NCBI RefSeq assembly: GCF_003815775.1
Contig: NZ_CP033926.1
Coordinates: 744,001-808,000, forward strand
DNA: 64,000 bases
Reading direction: 5' to 3'
Source of the DNA: Chryseobacterium joostei
Lineage (GTDB): Bacteria; Bacteroidota; Bacteroidia; Flavobacteriales; Weeksellaceae
The first letter of the stretch is position 1; each line of letters opens with the position of its first letter. Under the pieces are notes generated by a model. That model was not told where the DNA came from, did not search any database, and saw only the letters and a list, made by a program, of their open reading frames with translations. Positions 10,453 to 20,956 of the stretch are shown here, one piece after another. The position numbers and the translations under genes are program-made.

Positions 10453-11592
10453 TTAGTCTAGTACACTCCAACCTCTCTTAGGGTTAGCATTGCTAGAAAC
10501 CTCCTGCTCGTTAACAATAATATTTTCTTTTCTCTGACCGATATAATCCAGTTCGCTAAGTTTGGCGAAGATGGTTTCTAAGCTTCTCAACATTTGCTGG
10601 ATATAAAGTAATGGCTCTCCACAATTGTGATGGTCATAGTTAGTCTCTGCTACAATAGAAAGCTGGTTCAGTAAGGTATGTGGTGCAATCTCACTCCATT
10701 CTAAACTATAGTTCAACATTTCTTCCAGTTCAGCAGGAACCAGAAGCTGAGTTGAGTTGTATAAATGAAGTGCCAGTTTTGCAAATGATTCAATTAAAAA
10801 TACAGGTGGCTGCCAAGGGGTAATATTTCTGAATTGGAAGTACATATCTCCAAAGTTGTTCACCATAGTGCTACACAGAAACTTAACGTTCTGTGCCAAT
10901 GCTGTATTTTGGTTTTTGTGAGATGCTTTTTGAATGATTTTAAAAGCATACTGTTGTAGATTTCCGATAGATTTTGCAAAGCTTCCGTAATAATCTACCA
11001 AAGCCGGATGACTCTGGATAGAGGTACATGGCGGGATAAAATTGGAATCTACCTGTGCAATATTAGCCTTTAAATCCACTTTCCCTATAATCAGATAGTT
11101 CCCTCCTGAATAACTGCTGTTCAGGGAAGTTACAGGAAGTAACTCAATATGGTGATTAGGCTGTGCATTTGGATGGCGTGGCGGAATTTCTTCCGGATCA
11201 ATATCCCCAAAAGGAACCTTATCAAAAGGATTTACAGAGATCAGAATATAATATTCACCGTCTACCTGCTCCTCATTCATTGACTTCGCCAATGATTTCA
11301 CACTGATTCTTCTATCGATCAATTCTATACGATATCCAGCCATAGTAACGGCGCTGCATCTTTTGATCACCAGCTGCACATCATTGGTTGCAGTGTTGTG
11401 AACATCAAAAATAGTACGGTCTGTAAATTCTGTGGAAATAGGCAAAAGCCCATAGTTATATGTAGTAATCCCAAGTGAATTGGAATCTCTGATGGTATCA
11501 ATTAAGAAATTATCCTGATCATTAAGGTGTCTCTGGGAAACTTTCATCCCATCCACCCAATTGATTGCAAAATGTTTAATAGGTTGTATCAT
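10453..11592 (-). CDS. tssK: Type VI secretion baseplate protein TssK (Bacteroidetes subtype)
   Basis: 379 residues, shorter than proteobacterial TssK (about 440). The N-terminal FAINWVDGMKVSQRHLNDQDNFLIDTIRDSNSLGITTYNYGLLP corresponds to the TssK start (W-x-x-G-M-x-L-x-x-x-H-F). The central beta-rich part and the helical C-terminal part (PPVFLIESFAKLALHLYNSTQLLVPAELEEMLNYSLEWSEIAP) follow the family layout. TssK links the baseplate wedges to the membrane complex in the cytoplasm. It is third of three leftward genes (tssG, tssN, tssK), 28 bp after tssN, and ends at a terminator. No sheath, Hcp or ClpV gene is in the window. Confidence 0.85.
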   Translation of the reverse strand: MIQPIKHFAINWVDGMKVSQRHLNDQDNFLIDTIRDSNSLGITTYNYGLLPISTEFTDRTIFDVHNTATNDVQLVIKRCSAVTMAGYRIELIDRRISVKSLAKSMNEEQVDGEYYILISVNPFDKVPFGDIDPEEIPPRHPNAQPNHHIELLPVTSLNSSYSGGNYLIIGKVDLKANIAQVDSNFIPPCTSIQSHPALVDYYGSFAKSIGNLQQYAFKIIQKASHKNQNTALAQNVKFLCSTMVNNFGDMYFQFRNITPWQPPVFLIESFAKLALHLYNSTQLLVPAELEEMLNYSLEWSEIAPHTLLNQLSIVAETNYDHHNCGEPLLYIQQMLRSLETIFAKLSELDYIGQRKENIIVNEQEVSSNANPKRGWSVLD

Positions 11593-11620
11593 GCTTAATA
11601 CTTTTTAATTTTTTTTGTGT

Positions 11621-12523
11621 TTATGATTTTCTTGCGACTCCCTCCTCTTCATGCTGAATAACTCTTTTACAAATAACCACTTCATTTTCAGAAATGCTGT
11701 TTGTAGTAATGTCCTGGTCGAAATCTATATATTTTCTAAAGCTGAAAAATGATTTTTTAGTATAAAAGATCCAGTAATAAGGCTCTCTTGTCTCATCTGA
11801 AAGATGAATAATTGATCCCGGATTTTTATGGTTATAATCATCCACTACTCTATAAAACCAGTCACCAAAAGTAATCCCAGTCGGAAGTGTTTTTGCTTTA
11901 ATTCTGAATCGGTTTGAATCTTCAAGGTTTTTACTTAATTCAACATTTAAAACCATTAATCTGTCAAAGTCAACCCCATCAAAATCAGGAAGTTTCTGTT
12001 CCGGAGAATATCTCCATGTTTTATAGATATCAAAAGGAATACTGATAAACTGAATATAACAGTAATAAAATACCATTGGTACTACAAAGATCAGCATACT
12101 GGTGGCAGCCATTACCGCATACCCTGTACCTTTGCTCATCCAATTAAATAGCAAGGTAAACAAAAATCCTCCCAATGCTATACACGTTAATGAAAGTATT
12201 GACTCAAATAAAATACTCATTGATAAAGATTCAATGTGCTTTTTAAAGTATCTGTGTAATAAGTTCACGTGAATAATCCCAAAAATAAGGTAAATAACCT
12301 GTGCAATGAGATACCAATAAGGATTAAAAAGATTTCCGGCAAATCCAAAAACACCTGGAATAGCCAGGCATAAACTGCACAGAAGAACGTATATAATAAT
12401 GACTTTAATTTTTATCGCAGGTTTATTTCTCCTGATGATTCCCAGGATAAACATCATTATAACTGCGATTAAAGGCATTAGGATATACCTTAAAAAAATA
12501 CCTTTTACTGAAGAAATTTCCAT
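11621..12523 (-). CDS. tssN: Type VI secretion membrane protein TssN (T6SS subtype iii)
   Basis: 300 residues. The first 170 residues hold about six hydrophobic segments (for example YILMPLIAVIMMFILGII, VIIIYVLLCSLCLAIPGVFGF, YWYLIAQVIYLIFGIIHV, ILSLTCIALGGFLFTLLF, MLIFVVPMVFYYCYIQF). The rest is a cytosolic beta-rich domain (FRIKAKTLPTGITFGDWFYRVVDDYNHKNPGSIIHLSDE...PYYWIFYTKKS). This is the TssN layout, a component known only from the Bacteroidetes T6SSiii, where TssN-O-P-Q-R replace the TssJLM membrane complex. It lies between tssG (54 bp) and tssK (28 bp) in the same direction. Confidence 0.85.
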   Translation of the reverse strand: MEISSVKGIFLRYILMPLIAVIMMFILGIIRRNKPAIKIKVIIIYVLLCSLCLAIPGVFGFAGNLFNPYWYLIAQVIYLIFGIIHVNLLHRYFKKHIESLSMSILFESILSLTCIALGGFLFTLLFNWMSKGTGYAVMAATSMLIFVVPMVFYYCYIQFISIPFDIYKTWRYSPEQKLPDFDGVDFDRLMVLNVELSKNLEDSNRFRIKAKTLPTGITFGDWFYRVVDDYNHKNPGSIIHLSDETREPYYWIFYTKKSFFSFRKYIDFDQDITTNSISENEVVICKRVIQHEEEGVARKS

Positions 12524-12577
12524 TTTTTTCTTTTCGAATTTATACTTTGTTGGTAGTTGTAAATATAATAAAATAAT

Positions 12578-13519
12578 TTAGAGGAATGTAGAGTATCCAA
12601 GGCGGCTGGCATTTCTTTCATCATCCATAAGGCTGAACGAGTATTCTACCTTTTCTGTGACAAAATTTTCCTCTATATCCACCGTTACCGGAAGAAAATA
12701 GTCATACAATGCCTGAAGAACATTTCTGAACGGACTTCCGGGAATATATTTCTTCATATCCTCATAAGGAATCGGACCTATATTGACCACCCAGTTCCTT
12801 TGCCCATCCATATGTCTTCCACTCGGAATATAAGTAACTCCCAGCCTTGAATTTCCCAACAGCATAGAGTCATTATTTTTCTCTATTCCATCAATAACAT
12901 TTGGAGAAAAAGTTACCTCTACAGGTACTTGCAGAAATGCAGTCATACATCTTTCAAACCATTTCTTGTCTCCTCGGATCTGATGGAAAAATGGCAAAAT
13001 ATGCATAAAGACATAAGCGTTTTTCTTATCCAGCATATTGATCAGTGGCCACAGCTCGCTTACTGTTTCCAGCAAAGAATCTGTATTACTGGAAATATCA
13101 AACTCAGATTCCTTAAGTAAAGCACTGATCTCCGTAAAAAAAACTTCCAGCTCAAAAGGGCGGAAAAATTTTCGGGCATCATCCTCTACTCTTTTCTGTT
13201 TACGAATTTCTCTTACAACGGTGTCTACATTTTTTCTGGAAGCTCCAAGAGACGGCGGATGAAATAGTCCCTCAGGAAGATAATCATAAATCCCCTCCCT
13301 ATAAGTCTCTATAGTGAATACTTCCTCATCAAAGCCTAGATAACTGCTCGAAATGCTTTTAATATCCTTTAAATAGGCACGGTCATTTACACCTACCCTT
13401 TCAATAAAGATATTGCTTACGGTCCGTTGGTATTTTAAAAGGTTAACAGCCACAGCTTCAGCCTTAAAGTCTGTCTGCAGCTTATTGTAATTCATGTCTA
13501 CAATATTGTTCTCATGCAT
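12578..13519 (-). CDS. tssG: Type VI secretion baseplate protein TssG
   Basis: 313 residues. The C-terminal third shows the TssG pattern: GIEKNNDSMLLGNSRLGVTYIPSGRHMDGQRNWVVNIGPIPYEDMKKYIPGS, then a stretch on a predicted helix FRNVLQALYDYFLPV, and the terminal RLGYSTFL equivalent to the RLGWxxWL ending of TssG. TssG with TssF, TssE and TssK builds the baseplate wedge. The N-terminal third is less conserved. It is the first gene of the tssG-tssN-tssK unit. An in-frame ATG at 13495 is an alternative start. Upstream lie nearly 480 bp without a gene, including a 10-copy heptamer repeat. Confidence 0.75.
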   Translation of the reverse strand: MHENNIVDMNYNKLQTDFKAEAVAVNLLKYQRTVSNIFIERVGVNDRAYLKDIKSISSSYLGFDEEVFTIETYREGIYDYLPEGLFHPPSLGASRKNVDTVVREIRKQKRVEDDARKFFRPFELEVFFTEISALLKESEFDISSNTDSLLETVSELWPLINMLDKKNAYVFMHILPFFHQIRGDKKWFERCMTAFLQVPVEVTFSPNVIDGIEKNNDSMLLGNSRLGVTYIPSGRHMDGQRNWVVNIGPIPYEDMKKYIPGSPFRNVLQALYDYFLPVTVDIEENFVTEKVEYSFSLMDDERNASRLGYSTFL

Positions 13520-15965: not shown

Positions 15966-15989
15966 TTTTAGCGCAAACTATTTTATAGG

Positions 15990-16026
15990 CGGAGTCTGTT
16001 TTCAGGCTCCGTTTTTTTTTATTTTT
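15990..16026 (+). terminator. Terminator after rpoD
   Basis: GGAGTCTG (15991-15998) and CAGGCTCC (16003-16010) form an 8-bp stem with a TTTT loop and an immediate run of nine T. Confidence 0.9.
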
Positions 16027-16146
16027 GTATCTATGGATACTTTTATTTAAAGATTTTGATTTACATTCTATCGATAAGCATTTGTAACAATTTTTTAAAT
16101 ACCTTCAACTAATACCATTATAAAATTCAATTCGAAAAGATTAAAC

Positions 16147-17379
16147 ATGACTACTCTACCATTTGAAAACAAAATTTCTAAAGATAAAAACGTTCTTGTT
16201 GCTTTGCAAAACGACAATACTATCAATTCTGAACTTCAATACCTCATCGAGAATTTCTGCGGATTGGTTATCAATAACCTTTCGGATAGAGAGATTGACT
16301 TTAGCAATAAAAACATATACGTATGTGGAGACCTCAACATTCTTACAGAAACCAATCTCTTTCTTAACATTATAGAAGAGTTTTCGGTTAATTATGAAAA
16401 TTATAACCCGGAAAAATCAAAAATAGTAACACTGGGAGAAGTTCCTGTAGTCATCAGCAATGCTGGGGTTTATTACAGAAAACTGTTTGTGGGCGAAAGC
16501 AATTTTGATAAAATAAAATCTGAACATGATTTTCAGGAACTTACAGAATCCAACAAGGAAAGTAAGGCTTTAAGAAAAGGAATCTACCTCAGCAAAGTCA
16601 CCAAAACCCCTGCTGAAGACGGAAAAGATGCCTTTCATTATCATCTTTTGAGATGTTCCAGTAATTTAACAGGGCCTACAGATAATTTCCGCAGTACGGA
16701 TACAAAAATTATCAATATATTAAACAAGTGTGTGCAGGAAAGTTTCGAAAGTAAAACAGAACTTAATCACGCTCTGGTACAGATCTATGAGAATAAAAAG
16801 AAAACTGCTGATTCTGAAAAGGAAGTAAAAGCTAAAATCAAGGCACATTCGGATAAAACCAAAGATATGCCTAAGGAAGGGCTTATTGCATTTTGTACTT
16901 TTTATGATGATTCTAATACTGAACAGCTAAAACCATCAACTACCGACAGATTCGATTGGTGCTATAAACAAACAAGTGCCCTGACAAGATTGCATTTCAA
17001 GTTAAAGAAAAATGTGGAGGATGATTCTCTGGAAAAGGAATTCAGTGTTACTTTATACCCGAATTCTGCATTCATAATCCCGCTTTCCACCAACAGGCTC
17101 TATACCCATGAAATCAAACCCTCTGTTTTGGGTGTTGATCAAATTCCTATAAGAATGGGTTATGTAGTGCGTTGTTCTAATCTGGAAGCCATGCACACAG
17201 ATGATCAGACTTATATTAAAGAAAATGACAGCTATATTAAACTTGAAAAAATGACTCCTGAACTTCAGGAAGAGCTGCGCAATTCTTATTATGAAGAAAA
17301 TATCTCTGAAAAGATGATGGAATATGGAAAAATTCATTTCAGCATGAACTCTGGTGATTATGAAAAACCTATTTTTTAA
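16147..17379 (+). CDS. Putative 2-oxoglutarate/Fe(II) oxygenase-like protein with extra N-terminal domain
   Basis: 410 residues, cytosolic. Residues about 1-140 form an unfamiliar alpha/beta domain (NKNIYVCGDLNIL...IVTLGEVPVVISNAGVYYRKLF). From about residue 165 the protein reads like an AlkB-type double-stranded beta-helix: LNHALVQIYENKK, then IKAHSDKTKDMPKEGLIAFCTFYD with an H-x-D pair (H234, D236), a distal His in STNRLYTHEI (H321) and an Arg on the following strand (RMGYVVRCS, R342). These positions are the iron and 2-oxoglutarate ligands of the superfamily. The neighbouring gene has the same pattern. Substrate is unknown: nucleic acid, protein and small molecule are all possible. First gene of a six-gene run. 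I do not recognise it as a described family. Confidence 0.65.
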   Translation: MTTLPFENKISKDKNVLVALQNDNTINSELQYLIENFCGLVINNLSDREIDFSNKNIYVCGDLNILTETNLFLNIIEEFSVNYENYNPEKSKIVTLGEVPVVISNAGVYYRKLFVGESNFDKIKSEHDFQELTESNKESKALRKGIYLSKVTKTPAEDGKDAFHYHLLRCSSNLTGPTDNFRSTDTKIINILNKCVQESFESKTELNHALVQIYENKKKTADSEKEVKAKIKAHSDKTKDMPKEGLIAFCTFYDDSNTEQLKPSTTDRFDWCYKQTSALTRLHFKLKKNVEDDSLEKEFSVTLYPNSAFIIPLSTNRLYTHEIKPSVLGVDQIPIRMGYVVRCSNLEAMHTDDQTYIKENDSYIKLEKMTPELQEELRNSYYEENISEKMMEYGKIHFSMNSGDYEKPIF

Positions 17380-17398
17380 ATATATAAAATAAAGAAAA

Positions 17399-18187
17399 AT
17401 GAGCTTTCCTGAATTTTATATCATCAATCTTCCTTTGGAAGAAAATCTTTTCGATCCACTATTCAATTCTGCTGAATTTGAGTCTACCGGAAAAGGTAGG
17501 ATTGGAAATCATCTTGTTAATACAAATGGGCAACTTATTCCGATTGTAAGAACCACTACGCGATATGCCATTCCAGCTGTTGTATTTTCAGATATTCATC
17601 ATAAGCTTGTGGGCAGTATTAATGATACGTTACTTGAAAACCATATTGATATACCTGTACAGAATTTCAACAACGCTTTAATTGAAGTGTATGATTCTAC
17701 TTATTCTAAAATGAATTACCATTCTGATCAGGCATTGGACTTGGACAGCGATTCTTTTATAGCACTTTTTTCATGCTATGAGAAGCCTGAAGAGCTGGAG
17801 GAGTTTCATTTAAGAAAACTCGTTATTAAAGACAAAGTAACCCATGAGGAGGCTGAAATTATACTCCATCATAATTCTGTAGTTTTATTTTCCGTTGAAA
17901 CCAATAAAAGATTTCAGCATAAAATTATATTGAATTCATCATCAAATACAATATCCAATAATAAGTGGTTGGGAATAACTTTCCGAACTTCAAAAACCTA
18001 TATTCAGTTCAAAGATGAGCTTCCTTATTTTTCTACCGGTGAGGCACTGGCATTGACAGATAAAGATCAGGAATCAGAGTTTTTCCAGCTGAGGGGTCAG
18101 GAAAACAGATCACTGGATTTCGTTTATCCCAATTTATTGTACACCATAAGTAATGCGGACCTTATAAAACCTATTACCAAAACATAA
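17399..18187 (+). CDS. Putative AlkB-like 2-oxoglutarate/Fe(II) oxygenase, paralogue of the preceding gene
   Basis: 262 residues. NNALIEVYDSTYSKMNYHSDQALDLDSDSFIALFSCYE gives the H-x-D pair (H108, D110). FSVETNKRFQHKIIL gives the distal His (H174). WLGITFRTSKTYIQF gives the Arg that would salt-bridge 2-oxoglutarate (R196). The order and spacing mirror the preceding protein (IYENKK...HSDK...RLYTHEI...RMGYVVRCS), so the two are related, but this one lacks the long N-terminal domain and the charged insert. All four key residues are present, so activity is plausible. The gene follows 19 bp after the first. Substrate is unknown. AlkB DNA repair proteins are usually about 200 residues and stand alone. 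Confidence 0.68.
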   Translation: MSFPEFYIINLPLEENLFDPLFNSAEFESTGKGRIGNHLVNTNGQLIPIVRTTTRYAIPAVVFSDIHHKLVGSINDTLLENHIDIPVQNFNNALIEVYDSTYSKMNYHSDQALDLDSDSFIALFSCYEKPEELEEFHLRKLVIKDKVTHEEAEIILHHNSVVLFSVETNKRFQHKIILNSSSNTISNNKWLGITFRTSKTYIQFKDELPYFSTGEALALTDKDQESEFFQLRGQENRSLDFVYPNLLYTISNADLIKPITKT

Positions 18188-18203
18188 TTTTAAAATAATC
18201 ACA

Positions 18204-18797
18204 ATGAAAAAAATACTTTTCGCTTCTGTAATGGCTTTATCCTTGCTTTCATGTAGGGAAAGTAAGGCTGGAAATGCTCCGATTGTGGAAAATGCTGTTG
18301 ACAATGCAAAATCTTCGGTATCAAGTTCCTTAGAATCTTATCGTGGAGAAAATTTGATTGATCAAATCTATTCCGAGGTAATTAAAGATGATAAAAACCT
18401 TAAAGCACTTGATGATAAAGTACAAAAAAACATAGAGGAAACCGAAAAGGTTCTGGAGATATACGACAAAATACTCAGCATGTCTGAATCTTATTATCAG
18501 CAGGCAGGATATAAAACCAAGTCGATTACTGATTCTCTGATGAAAAAACAGATTGAAGCAGAGGTTAAAATCAGTGCTGATCAATACAATCTTAAAACCG
18601 GAAATATAAAAGCGCTTATTGCTCAGATCAATAAAAATAATGAAACTTTAAATAATCTATACGTTGCCTTTAAAATCAGAAAAACACTTCTTGAAATTGA
18701 AAAGTATCAAAATGCTCATCCTCTAAAAACAGACAGTCTAGATAATTTCATCAAGAAGCAGAATAGGTTAATGGAAGAATTAAAGCATATAAAATAA
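18204..18797 (+). CDS. Lipoprotein with predicted coiled coil, unknown function
   Basis: 197 residues. MKKILFASVMALSLLSCRES is a lipoprotein signal with LLS|C (Cys17). The mature part is almost all helical and charged (NLKALDDKVQKNIEETEKVLEIYDKILSMSESYYQQAG...IEAEVKISADQYNLKTGNIKALIAQINKNNETLNNLYVAFKIRKTLLEIEKYQ), a likely coiled coil. I recognise no family. It is 16 bp after the second oxygenase-like gene and 10 bp before a GNAT gene, so it is translated as part of this operon. That links an envelope protein to two cytosolic oxygenase-like proteins. Confidence 0.78.
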   Translation: MKKILFASVMALSLLSCRESKAGNAPIVENAVDNAKSSVSSSLESYRGENLIDQIYSEVIKDDKNLKALDDKVQKNIEETEKVLEIYDKILSMSESYYQQAGYKTKSITDSLMKKQIEAEVKISADQYNLKTGNIKALIAQINKNNETLNNLYVAFKIRKTLLEIEKYQNAHPLKTDSLDNFIKKQNRLMEELKHIK

Positions 18798-18807
18798 ACA
18801 ACATCTT

Positions 18808-19308
18808 ATGAAATATACTACAAAATGGCTTACAGATAAAACACGCGTCCCGGAACTGGTCGACTTTTTTATTGCCCATAAAACAGATTCCTACATCTCC
18901 CACAGTGAAATTATGTATGGAAGAGCTTTAGATTCCAATCATTGGAATCCTGATCTCAGAGCTGTATTTACAGAACAGCTTATGACCGATTATGATTATA
19001 ATGAGGCTTCAAAATTGAATATTTTAATTGCAGAAAATGGCAACGGAGATATTGTCGGGATGCTTGTTTTCAATGTTATTAACAGTCCTTTTAAAAAGTA
19101 TGCTATTTTGGAAGATATGCTTTTAGATCAAGCCGTAAGAGGTCAGTCTCTTGGAAGTAAACTTTTGGAGGAAGTGATTCGGGAATCCAAAAGCTGGAAC
19201 GTCAGTTTTATTATGCTGGAAAGTGGTGCTGATAATCATGGTGCCCATCATTTTTTCGGTAAATATGGTTTTAAAAAAGTATCTGAAAGTTATATGTTAA
19301 CCCTATAA
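18808..19308 (+). CDS. GNAT-family N-acetyltransferase
   Basis: 166 residues. Acetyl-CoA-binding motif A is visible as EDMLLDQAVRGQSLGSKLLEEVIRESKSWN (R/Q-x-x-G-x-S/A pattern GQSLGS). The preceding strand is IVGMLVFNVINSPF, and the closing strand SFIMLESGADNHGAHHFFGKYGFKKVSESYMLTL contains the usual HxFFxKYGF helix. The substrate of GNATs cannot be read from sequence. It lies in the oxygenase-lipoprotein-monooxygenase run with short gaps (10 bp before, 49 bp after), which suggests a role in the same pathway, perhaps as a tailoring or modifying enzyme. That is inference. Confidence 0.9.
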   Translation: MKYTTKWLTDKTRVPELVDFFIAHKTDSYISHSEIMYGRALDSNHWNPDLRAVFTEQLMTDYDYNEASKLNILIAENGNGDIVGMLVFNVINSPFKKYAILEDMLLDQAVRGQSLGSKLLEEVIRESKSWNVSFIMLESGADNHGAHHFFGKYGFKKVSESYMLTL

Positions 19309-19357
19309 ATTTCATGAACAACTTACAACAGGCTTTACATACCATAAACCAATACTG

Positions 19358-20476
19358 ATGAATCCCATTTCAATCATAGGAGCCGGAATTGGCGGTCTCA
19401 CCCTTGGAAATATCCTGAAGCAGCATCAATATGATTTTACGCTCTATGAATCTGCTCCTGAAATAAAGCCTGTAGGGGCAGGAATCATGATGGCTGTAAA
19501 TGCGATGCAGGTTTTTGATCAATTGGGCTTAAAAGAAAAAATTGAAAATGCAGGAAATAAAATCCATAGAATCACCCTATCCAACGAATCAATGAAACCG
19601 TTTTCAAAAACGGAAATTCTTGAACTTGAAAAAAAGTATAATTCCTGCAATGTAGCCATTCACAGAGCTGAACTACAGAGAATTCTTGCAGAAAATTTAG
19701 ATCCTGCGGCTATTCGGCTCAATCATTCTTTAAAGACCATTGAAAAGAAAGAAAACTATATTTTGGATTTTGATAATGGAACCCAAGTAGAAAGTACAAT
19801 TGTCTTTGGTGCAGATGGTATAAAGTCTCCTATCCGAAATCAAATATTAAAAACAGGAACCATCCGAAGTTCCGGACAAAAATGCTGGCGCGGGCTTGTA
19901 GACTTTGAGCTGCCTGAAAAACATCATCATGAGGCCTTTGAAATGTGGGGGAAAGGAAAACGCTTTGGCTTTGTAAAGATCTCGGAGAAAAAAGTGTACT
20001 GGTATGCCTGCATCAATGAGAGGAGCTTTGGCAGATATTTGGAACTAACAGACATTTTTAAAGAGTATCATTCTCTCGTTTTGAAGCTTATTGAAGCTAC
20101 AGAAGAAGAAGATATCATCTGTAATGAAATTTCCGACCTCTCACCCATTCCGAAATGGTATTCTGAAAACCTATGCCTGATTGGTGATGCTGCCCATGCT
20201 ACCACTCCTAATATGGGACAAGGTGCCTGCCAGGCCATTGAAGATGCTTACATTCTTGGGAAGTTACTCGAGAAGCATAAAGACTTTAATTTCATCTTCG
20301 AGCAATTTCAAAAAATCAGAAGAAAAAAGGTGGATTATATTGTGAGTACCAGTTGGAAAATAGGACAAATCTCGCAATGGGAACGAGGAAATTCTCTGCG
20401 TAATTTCTTTATGAGGCTTATTCCGGAAACCACCAATCAAAAATTAGTTGAAAAAATTACACAATTGGAATTATAA
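19358..20476 (+). CDS. FAD-dependent monooxygenase (class A flavoprotein hydroxylase-like)
   Basis: 372 residues, normal length. Three flavoprotein motifs are clear: GAGIGGLTLGNIL near residue 8 (GxGxxG for the ADP of FAD), VFGADGIKSPIR near residue 154 (DG motif) and LIGDAAHATTPNMGQGACQAIEDAY near residue 280 (GD motif with the AHATTPNxGQG loop). This is the group of FAD monooxygenases that includes salicylate and 3-hydroxybenzoate hydroxylases and zeaxanthin epoxidase. Tet(X) belongs to the same superfamily, but I see no specific reason to call this tigecycline-inactivating. It overlaps the next gene by one base (TAATG), showing translational coupling. Confidence 0.88.
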   Translation: MNPISIIGAGIGGLTLGNILKQHQYDFTLYESAPEIKPVGAGIMMAVNAMQVFDQLGLKEKIENAGNKIHRITLSNESMKPFSKTEILELEKKYNSCNVAIHRAELQRILAENLDPAAIRLNHSLKTIEKKENYILDFDNGTQVESTIVFGADGIKSPIRNQILKTGTIRSSGQKCWRGLVDFELPEKHHHEAFEMWGKGKRFGFVKISEKKVYWYACINERSFGRYLELTDIFKEYHSLVLKLIEATEEEDIICNEISDLSPIPKWYSENLCLIGDAAHATTPNMGQGACQAIEDAYILGKLLEKHKDFNFIFEQFQKIRRKKVDYIVSTSWKIGQISQWERGNSLRNFFMRLIPETTNQKLVEKITQLEL

Positions 20477-20940
20477 TGATCACAATAAAAACTTTCAAAT
20501 TCGAATCTAATCTTGCCTTTGTCAGTTCTTATTTAAAAGAGCAACATATTCCTCATTTTGCAGATTTAAAAACGAAATCTCTTCTTTCTGATGAAAAAAC
20601 AAAATATGAAATTTTAAAAATCATAGAAGATTTAAAAATAGATGAAGCCGATGTAGAGCCTGATAGAGAAATACTTGAAGGCTATAAGGAATGGAACGAA
20701 AACATGTATAACCCGGGATATTATACCGGAGGAAAATCTCCTTCTTTTAGTCATGACAAAAGTAATTATTTAACTTTAGGCTTTGTAACTCTTTTATCTG
20801 GCTTGGCTTGTTGTGTTGAATTAATTTATGGAGATAATTTTAGCAAAACTTTCTTCTGGATAATGGTAGGCATAATTTCACTCATTAGTTTTTCTTTTTT
20901 CTATCAGTATTTTAAATATAAAAAAAGGAACTCAAATTGA
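20476..20940 (+). CDS. Small protein with two C-terminal membrane segments, unknown
   Basis: 154 residues. The first about 95 are soluble and charged (KTFKFESNLAFVSSYLKEQHIPHFADLKT...ILKIIEDLKIDEADVEPDREILEGYKEWN), loosely like the signal-transducing PII-like DUF2007 fold. Then come YLTLGFVTLLSGLACCVELIYG and FFWIMVGIISLISFSFFYQYF, two transmembrane helices, and a basic tail. Its start overlaps the monooxygenase stop, so it is coupled to it. Its last codons and stop lie inside a perfect hairpin that also serves as the operon terminator. Function unknown. Confidence 0.75.
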   Translation: MITIKTFKFESNLAFVSSYLKEQHIPHFADLKTKSLLSDEKTKYEILKIIEDLKIDEADVEPDREILEGYKEWNENMYNPGYYTGGKSPSFSHDKSNYLTLGFVTLLSGLACCVELIYGDNFSKTFFWIMVGIISLISFSFFYQYFKYKKRNSN

Positions 20941-20956
20941 GTTCCTTCTGTTTTTA
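20925..20956. terminator. Bidirectional terminator overlapping the end of the last operon gene
   Basis: AAGGAACTCAA (20925-20935) is perfectly complementary to TTGAGTTCCTT (20937-20947), so a 9-bp stem with a small loop is realistic. A runs lie left and T runs right. The stop codon of the upstream gene (20938-20940) lies in the stem, and the leftward oxidase gene ends at 20954. Confidence 0.85.

Follow-up and report, generated by a model that had tools for sequence, protein, structure and literature searches.

The neighborhood analyzed here raises the question of whether six closely spaced genes of Chryseobacterium joostei work as one system or whether a smaller unit lies among them. The window, that is, the whole 64,000-nucleotide stretch of DNA under analysis, corresponds to positions 744001 to 808000 of contig 1 in a genome of 4.89 Mb. 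Within it, six open reading frames (ORFs), here called g1 to g6, follow one another on the + strand between 16147 and 20940, with gaps of 19, 16, 10, and 49 bp and then an overlap of one base, in agreement with the original prediction, which had been made from the sequence alone. We favor, with moderate confidence, the reading that g1 and g2 constitute an old cassette of two genes with a patchy distribution, whose products, both Fe(II)-type oxygenases of the AlkB fold, act jointly on nucleic acid, probably as a complex. Computation shows that the two are paralogues, that g2 and, with less certainty, g1 have the AlkB fold, that both metal triads are conserved, that the genes are almost always paired, and that they lie in the leader of a resident operon.

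The products of g1 (16147-17379) and g2 (17399-18187) are AlkB-like proteins of 410 and 262 amino acids, respectively. They are paralogues over the full length of g2, including its C-terminal tail, and blastp joins them at approximately 20% identity in several species. Their earlier assignment as AlkB-like 2-oxoglutarate (2OG)/Fe(II) oxygenases is supported, firmly for g2 and with moderate confidence for g1. The g2 model presents a confident AlkB/ALKBH2-3 fold, with a double-stranded beta-helix of the AlkB type, whereas the g1 model resembles such a fold less clearly, in a fold search that barely covered the first ~95 residues. The oxygenase domain of g1 spans model residues ~98 to 366. An extra domain of 140 residues had also been ascribed to g1; extra sequence is indeed present and consists, more accurately, of loop insertions together with an N-terminal extension of ~100 residues. 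The closest solved folds to g1 and g2 are nucleic-acid demethylases.

Against the Pfam family PF13532, g2 scores above the cutoff (38.1 bits, cutoff 31.2) and g1 below it (19.1 bits), with 8 of 19 g1 orthologues matching at an E value of <=0.01. Sequence searches of the PDB with g1 or g2 singly gave no match, and neither did a g1 profile; a g2 profile reached ALKBH3 and ALKBH2 only at E values of 0.06 to 1, a range that also takes in a KtrA chain (0.34). NCBIfam returned no match for g1, g2, or g6, and PADLOC returned weak matches only (g2 against CARF_2OG at 3e-4). In PHROGs, g2 weakly matched "alkylated DNA repair" (E value of 0.002). Passages of PMC8616854 deal with human ALKBH3.

The two proteins differ in the residues expected to contact the cosubstrate. 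AlkB holds 2OG with both arginines of an R-x5-R motif, and g1 retains the full set of five AlkB ligands, H-x-D...H plus R-x5-R. Its residues H234-S-D236, H321, R336, G338, and R342 are identical in 40 of 41 rows, the exception being the broken copy in L077. The g2 residues H108-S-D110, H174, W190, G192, and R196 are also identical in 40 of 41 rows (exception, the broken copy in L062), and the shared H-x-D...H...R ligands first read from the window are conserved to that same extent in each protein. The metal triad is kept in g2, but the R-x5-R motif is not: in those 40 rows, the first arginine is a tryptophan (Trp190) and the second is retained. A basic residue precedes this tryptophan in 37 of 41 rows; it is not a strict replacement for the arginine, because the two Embleya copies have Gln at that position and L119 has His. 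With tryptophan in place of the first arginine, g2 is classified as an AlkB-fold relative and not as a standard AlkB enzyme. Three more AlkB-like proteins of 204 to 209 amino acids score above the PF13532 cutoff in the same genome (G000:C1:1377400, 2005145, and 1316524, corresponding to L081-L083). They carry ordinary R-x5-R motifs, reading RINLTFR, RVNLTFR, and RISLTFR, as opposed to WLGITFR in g2 of the window.

The pairing of g1 with g2 was followed over 42 distinct g1 loci, made up of the window, 24 loci from a contig scan, 8 further loci of the genus (L070-L077), 6 further Flavobacteriales loci (L068, L069, L116, and L118-L120), and 3 actinomycete records (L078-L080); L117 was left out because it lies on the same contig as L055. 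In 41 of these, g2 adjoins g1 on the same strand, with broken copies in L062, L070, and L077. The sole locus without an adjacent g2 is L120, where none was found within the 18 kb read. There, g1 is followed, in the place of g2, by an ORF (L120:9550-10164) judged by eye to be transposase-like and of the REP type. In L062, from Chryseobacterium sp. E1, frame changes split many genes, including g1, g2, rpoD, and tssG, which looks like an assembly error.

Among 173 genomes of the genus, g1 was found in 21, and g2 was found in the same 21. A tree of 78 rows, computed without an outgroup and with many inner forks open, presents a single split between 39 g1 and 39 g2 sequences (support 100/100), with the three actinomycetes on both sides. 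The two genes stem from an old duplication. The g1 and g2 distances across 38 loci correlate with an r of 0.94, as expected from joint inheritance. The pair is present in both Bacteroidota and Actinomycetota and is rare: g1 occurs in 3 of 395 sampled Bacteroidota genomes, the source genome counted, and in 6 of a sample of 397 Flavobacteriaceae genomes. In a plasmid collection, three actinomycete records match g1, and the same three match g2. The closest match to the g1 of the window, at 71%, is the g1 of Xanthocytophaga, a member of another order, and this closeness hints at transfer. No relative of g1 or g2 was found in viral contigs, and phage records, searched with g1 only, gave no match; a phage origin of the pair was therefore dropped.

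Compared with AlkB, ALKBH2, ALKBH3, and FTO (PF13532, 2OG-FeII_Oxy_2), the pair shares the fold (less firmly so for g1), the H-x-D...H metal triad, and the final arginine, and g1 also the R-x5-R motif. It differs in the C-terminal region past the AlkB core, the N-terminal extension of g1 and its score below the Pfam cutoff, the tryptophan of g2, and in consisting of two diverged paralogues, paired in all but one of the 42 loci. The AlkB proteins known to us are single enzymes, in contrast to this near-obligate pair, one member of which has an altered 2OG pocket. The pair therefore allows a direct test of whether AlkB-type oxygenases of bacteria can be two-subunit enzymes.

Because they co-occur, adjoin each other, and are inherited jointly, g1 and g2 would most likely act together, as one working unit on nucleic acid. 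It is doubtful that they are two independent AlkB-type repair enzymes, merely neighbors and each working alone. Both do keep the metal triad and, to our knowledge, AlkB enzymes act singly, but this view sits poorly with the presence of g1 and g2 in the same genus genomes without exception, with joint inheritance over two phyla, with the alteration of one cosubstrate site, and with a genome that already has three other PF13532 proteins above the cutoff.

Comparison with relatives lacking g1 places the pair within the leader of a resident operon. Downstream of it lie g3 (18204-18797), a lipoprotein-like gene so labeled by eye from its N terminus; g4 (18808-19308), a GNAT acetyltransferase (PF00583); and g5 (19358-20476), a flavin adenine dinucleotide (FAD)-dependent monooxygenase (PF01494). 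The Pfam matches of the last two agree with the GNAT and FAD enzyme labels given earlier. Within the genus, g3 is found in 136 of the 173 genomes and g5 in 141 at an E value of <=1e-100, 13 of these having only a copy of ~50% identity. In 20 regions without g1, which were chosen for holding g3 and compared for mapped genes only, g3 is the first mapped gene past rpoD in all 20, and g4 and g5 are each present in 16; the wider rpoD-g3 gaps among these regions reach ~900 bp.

The sequence flanking the pair fits the same arrangement. Positions 15966-16146 on the + strand comprise the terminator of rpoD and the leader that precedes g1 (terminator scan and alignment by eye). The second half of this segment, in the window and in L042, is similar to what precedes g3 in the g1-less regions L091-L093, and it is the presumed promoter region of the resident operon. 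The last bases of the g2-g3 junction (18188-18203, + strand), directly before g3, also agree by eye between the window and L042 on one side and L091-L093 on the other; the alignment of the other six empty sites displayed is poor in this part. The most economical interpretation is an insertion of g1-g2 between this upstream region and the start of the g3 operon. Among the 21 genus loci that carry g1, the complete set of six genes is found in the window alone, and g1 to g5 stand in order in four (the window, L042, L043, and L071). Outside the genus, none of g3, g4, and g6 was found in 21 g1 loci, and the sole g5 match (L053) is short and on the opposite strand. The six-gene order is thus not conserved past the closest strains, whereas the order of the g1-g2 pair is, and g3 to g5 are older residents of the site, separate from the g1-g2 system.

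An endonuclease V family gene (PF04493, 45.4 bits, cutoff 23.4) directly follows g2 in 11 of the 18 Bacteroidota loci outside the genus. Eight of these 11 share one array, with proteins 93 to 100% identical to each other's reference, leaving about four independent lineages. The endonuclease V family cuts at hypoxanthine/inosine. The companion, which is not part of the window cassette, resembles Nfi in scoring above the Pfam cutoff and in residues D6, E52, D74, and K105, which are invariant in 8 of 8 sequences and presumably correspond to the catalytic residues of the family. It differs in being a short form, mostly of 166 to 173 amino acids, and in a later conserved His that is Ala in L068. 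Among 397 Flavobacteriaceae genomes, 22 have a short endonuclease V, including all six g1-bearing genomes, in four of which the genes are unlinked. The probability of this overlap by chance is 1.4e-8 with genomes taken as independent and 7e-7 by genus (5 within 16 of 237), kinship being uncorrected and the g1 and endonuclease V draws being of the same name and size, with sameness not checked row by row.

Three observations weigh against the picture of an inserted cassette that works on nucleic acid alongside this companion. First, within Chryseobacterium a short endonuclease V is present in 57 of 59 genomes tested, namely, in all 21 that have g1 and in 36 of the 38 that do not; given the latter count, the Chryseobacterium gene was dropped as support for a link. 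Second, when the short endonuclease V was used to query the plasmid collection, 8 records matched, none of them a pair-bearing Embleya or Nonomuraea record, and yet the pair-bearing Nonomuraea record is 11.85 Mb long. Since the actinomycete pair records lack the short endonuclease V, the link between the two is a Bacteroidota pattern. Third, L047-L051 hold other ORFs between rpoD and g1, so that simple insertion accounts best for the window, L042, and the loci most closely related to them. One of these ORFs encodes 415 amino acids, with no Pfam family above cutoff, and a second, small ORF stands beside it. Together with an Imm26 gene in L071, these extra ORFs indicate that the site after rpoD gathers genes.

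That the substrate of the two-oxygenase cassette would be nucleic acid is suggested by the nearest solved folds, which are nucleic-acid demethylases, together with the frequent short endonuclease V companion. On the reading favored here, g1, with its metal triad and both 2OG arginines, would be the complete catalyst and would carry out 2OG-dependent oxidation, and g2, with its invariant tryptophan, would be a partner with altered or absent use of 2OG. The latter may bind, position, or regulate, perhaps with a metal of its own. A modified or damaged base would thereby be hydroxylated or oxidatively removed.

Some copies of the pair stand next to immunity genes. In the Winogradskyella-type loci (L057-L061, L063, L065, and L116), genes for SUKH, SUFU, DUF1963, DUF2314, and DUF2262 precede g1 (Pfam scan of representatives), and those for SUKH, SUFU, and DUF2314 share one orientation. 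The Imm26 gene of L071 (24.0 bits, cutoff 23.3) lies between rpoD and g1, a DUF1963 gene precedes g1 in L056, and a DUF6304 gene is near it in L069. As far as they were read, L053, L055, L064, L118, and L119 contain no recognized immunity gene; the actinomycete loci were not scanned with Pfam. The array plus endonuclease V also occurs in L166 and L167, and unlinked short endonuclease V genes adjoin or lie near SUKH (L176:5819-6904, L177:4365-6514, and L185:5785-6797) or Imm35 (L184:6631-7478), in each case without g1-g2 in the stretch read. Endonuclease V beside immunity genes is thus a lead independent of the pair. PMC3482391 describes polyimmunity loci and, in its accessible part, lists SUKH, SUFU, and DUF2314 as immunity families and names no DUF1963, dioxygenase, or endonuclease V. 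The Winogradskyella-type loci are like these polyimmunity loci in the three families preceding g1, and unlike them in the oxygenases and the endonuclease V; most pair loci elsewhere lack such arrays.

A special case and bolder extension of the nucleic-acid explanation is that the pair, often with the short endonuclease V, enzymatically reverses nucleic-acid lesions made by interbacterial toxins, which we regard as unlikely. Classical immunity proteins block the toxin itself. Taken in full, the proposal amounts to an undescribed kind of immunity, in which a complete oxygenase and one with an altered cosubstrate site reside in immunity-gene arrays and are shared between phyla, and in this form too it is improbable. 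Although the polyimmunity families before g1, the Imm26 gene, the unlinked endonuclease V genes near SUKH or Imm35, and the patchy distribution of the pair all fit it, five loci are without a recognized immunity gene as far as read, hot spots collect unrelated genes, the Chryseobacterium endonuclease V has a conserved setting without recognized immunity genes, and no toxin partner was identified. Its odds are lowered further by the actinomycete pair records, which lack the short endonuclease V. What the companion and the immunity-array setting of some copies do provide is a specific hypothesis, the repair of toxin-made base damage.

There is a similarly small chance that the substrate of the pair is a small molecule, as would hold for natural-product tailoring or self-resistance. 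Oxygenases of this 2OG-dependent superfamily are common in such pathways, and large actinomycete genomes are among those with the pair, but its flanks vary by lineage with no recurring biosynthetic neighbors, g4 and g5 are part of the resident operon, and the closest folds are those of nucleic-acid demethylases. A biosynthetic cluster with g4 and g5 was dropped, both being resident and present at empty sites. The first proposal, a single six-gene system for modification or biosynthesis, is highly improbable, since the short gaps in this strain are outweighed by the empty-site comparison, with g3 to g5 at the same place without g1 and g2 in relatives, and by the differing gene distributions, which contradict a conserved unit. 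Short gaps can thus mislead, as two genes placed in the leader of a resident operon mimic a six-gene system.

The last gene, g6 (20476-20940, + strand), is a small membrane-protein-like ORF, so labeled by eye from its hydrophobic C terminus, and is found at this site elsewhere only in L044; like g3, it has no Pfam family above cutoff. The longest-stemmed terminator-like sites (12 pairs, n = 2) lie at 15987-16014, after rpoD, and at 20925-20947, after g6 (both strands). The 12-pair site after g6 agrees with the earlier claim of a terminator at the end; shorter terminator-like matches also lie within the genes. Cotranscription of the six genes in this strain is plausible.

Upstream, on the - strand, type VI secretion genes occupy 10453-13519 of the window, encoding TssN (PF17555, E value of 3.5e-88), TssG (PF06996, above cutoff), and a TssK-like ORF (PF05936, below cutoff). 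Type VI genes are kept upstream of rpoD in most of the genus loci read.

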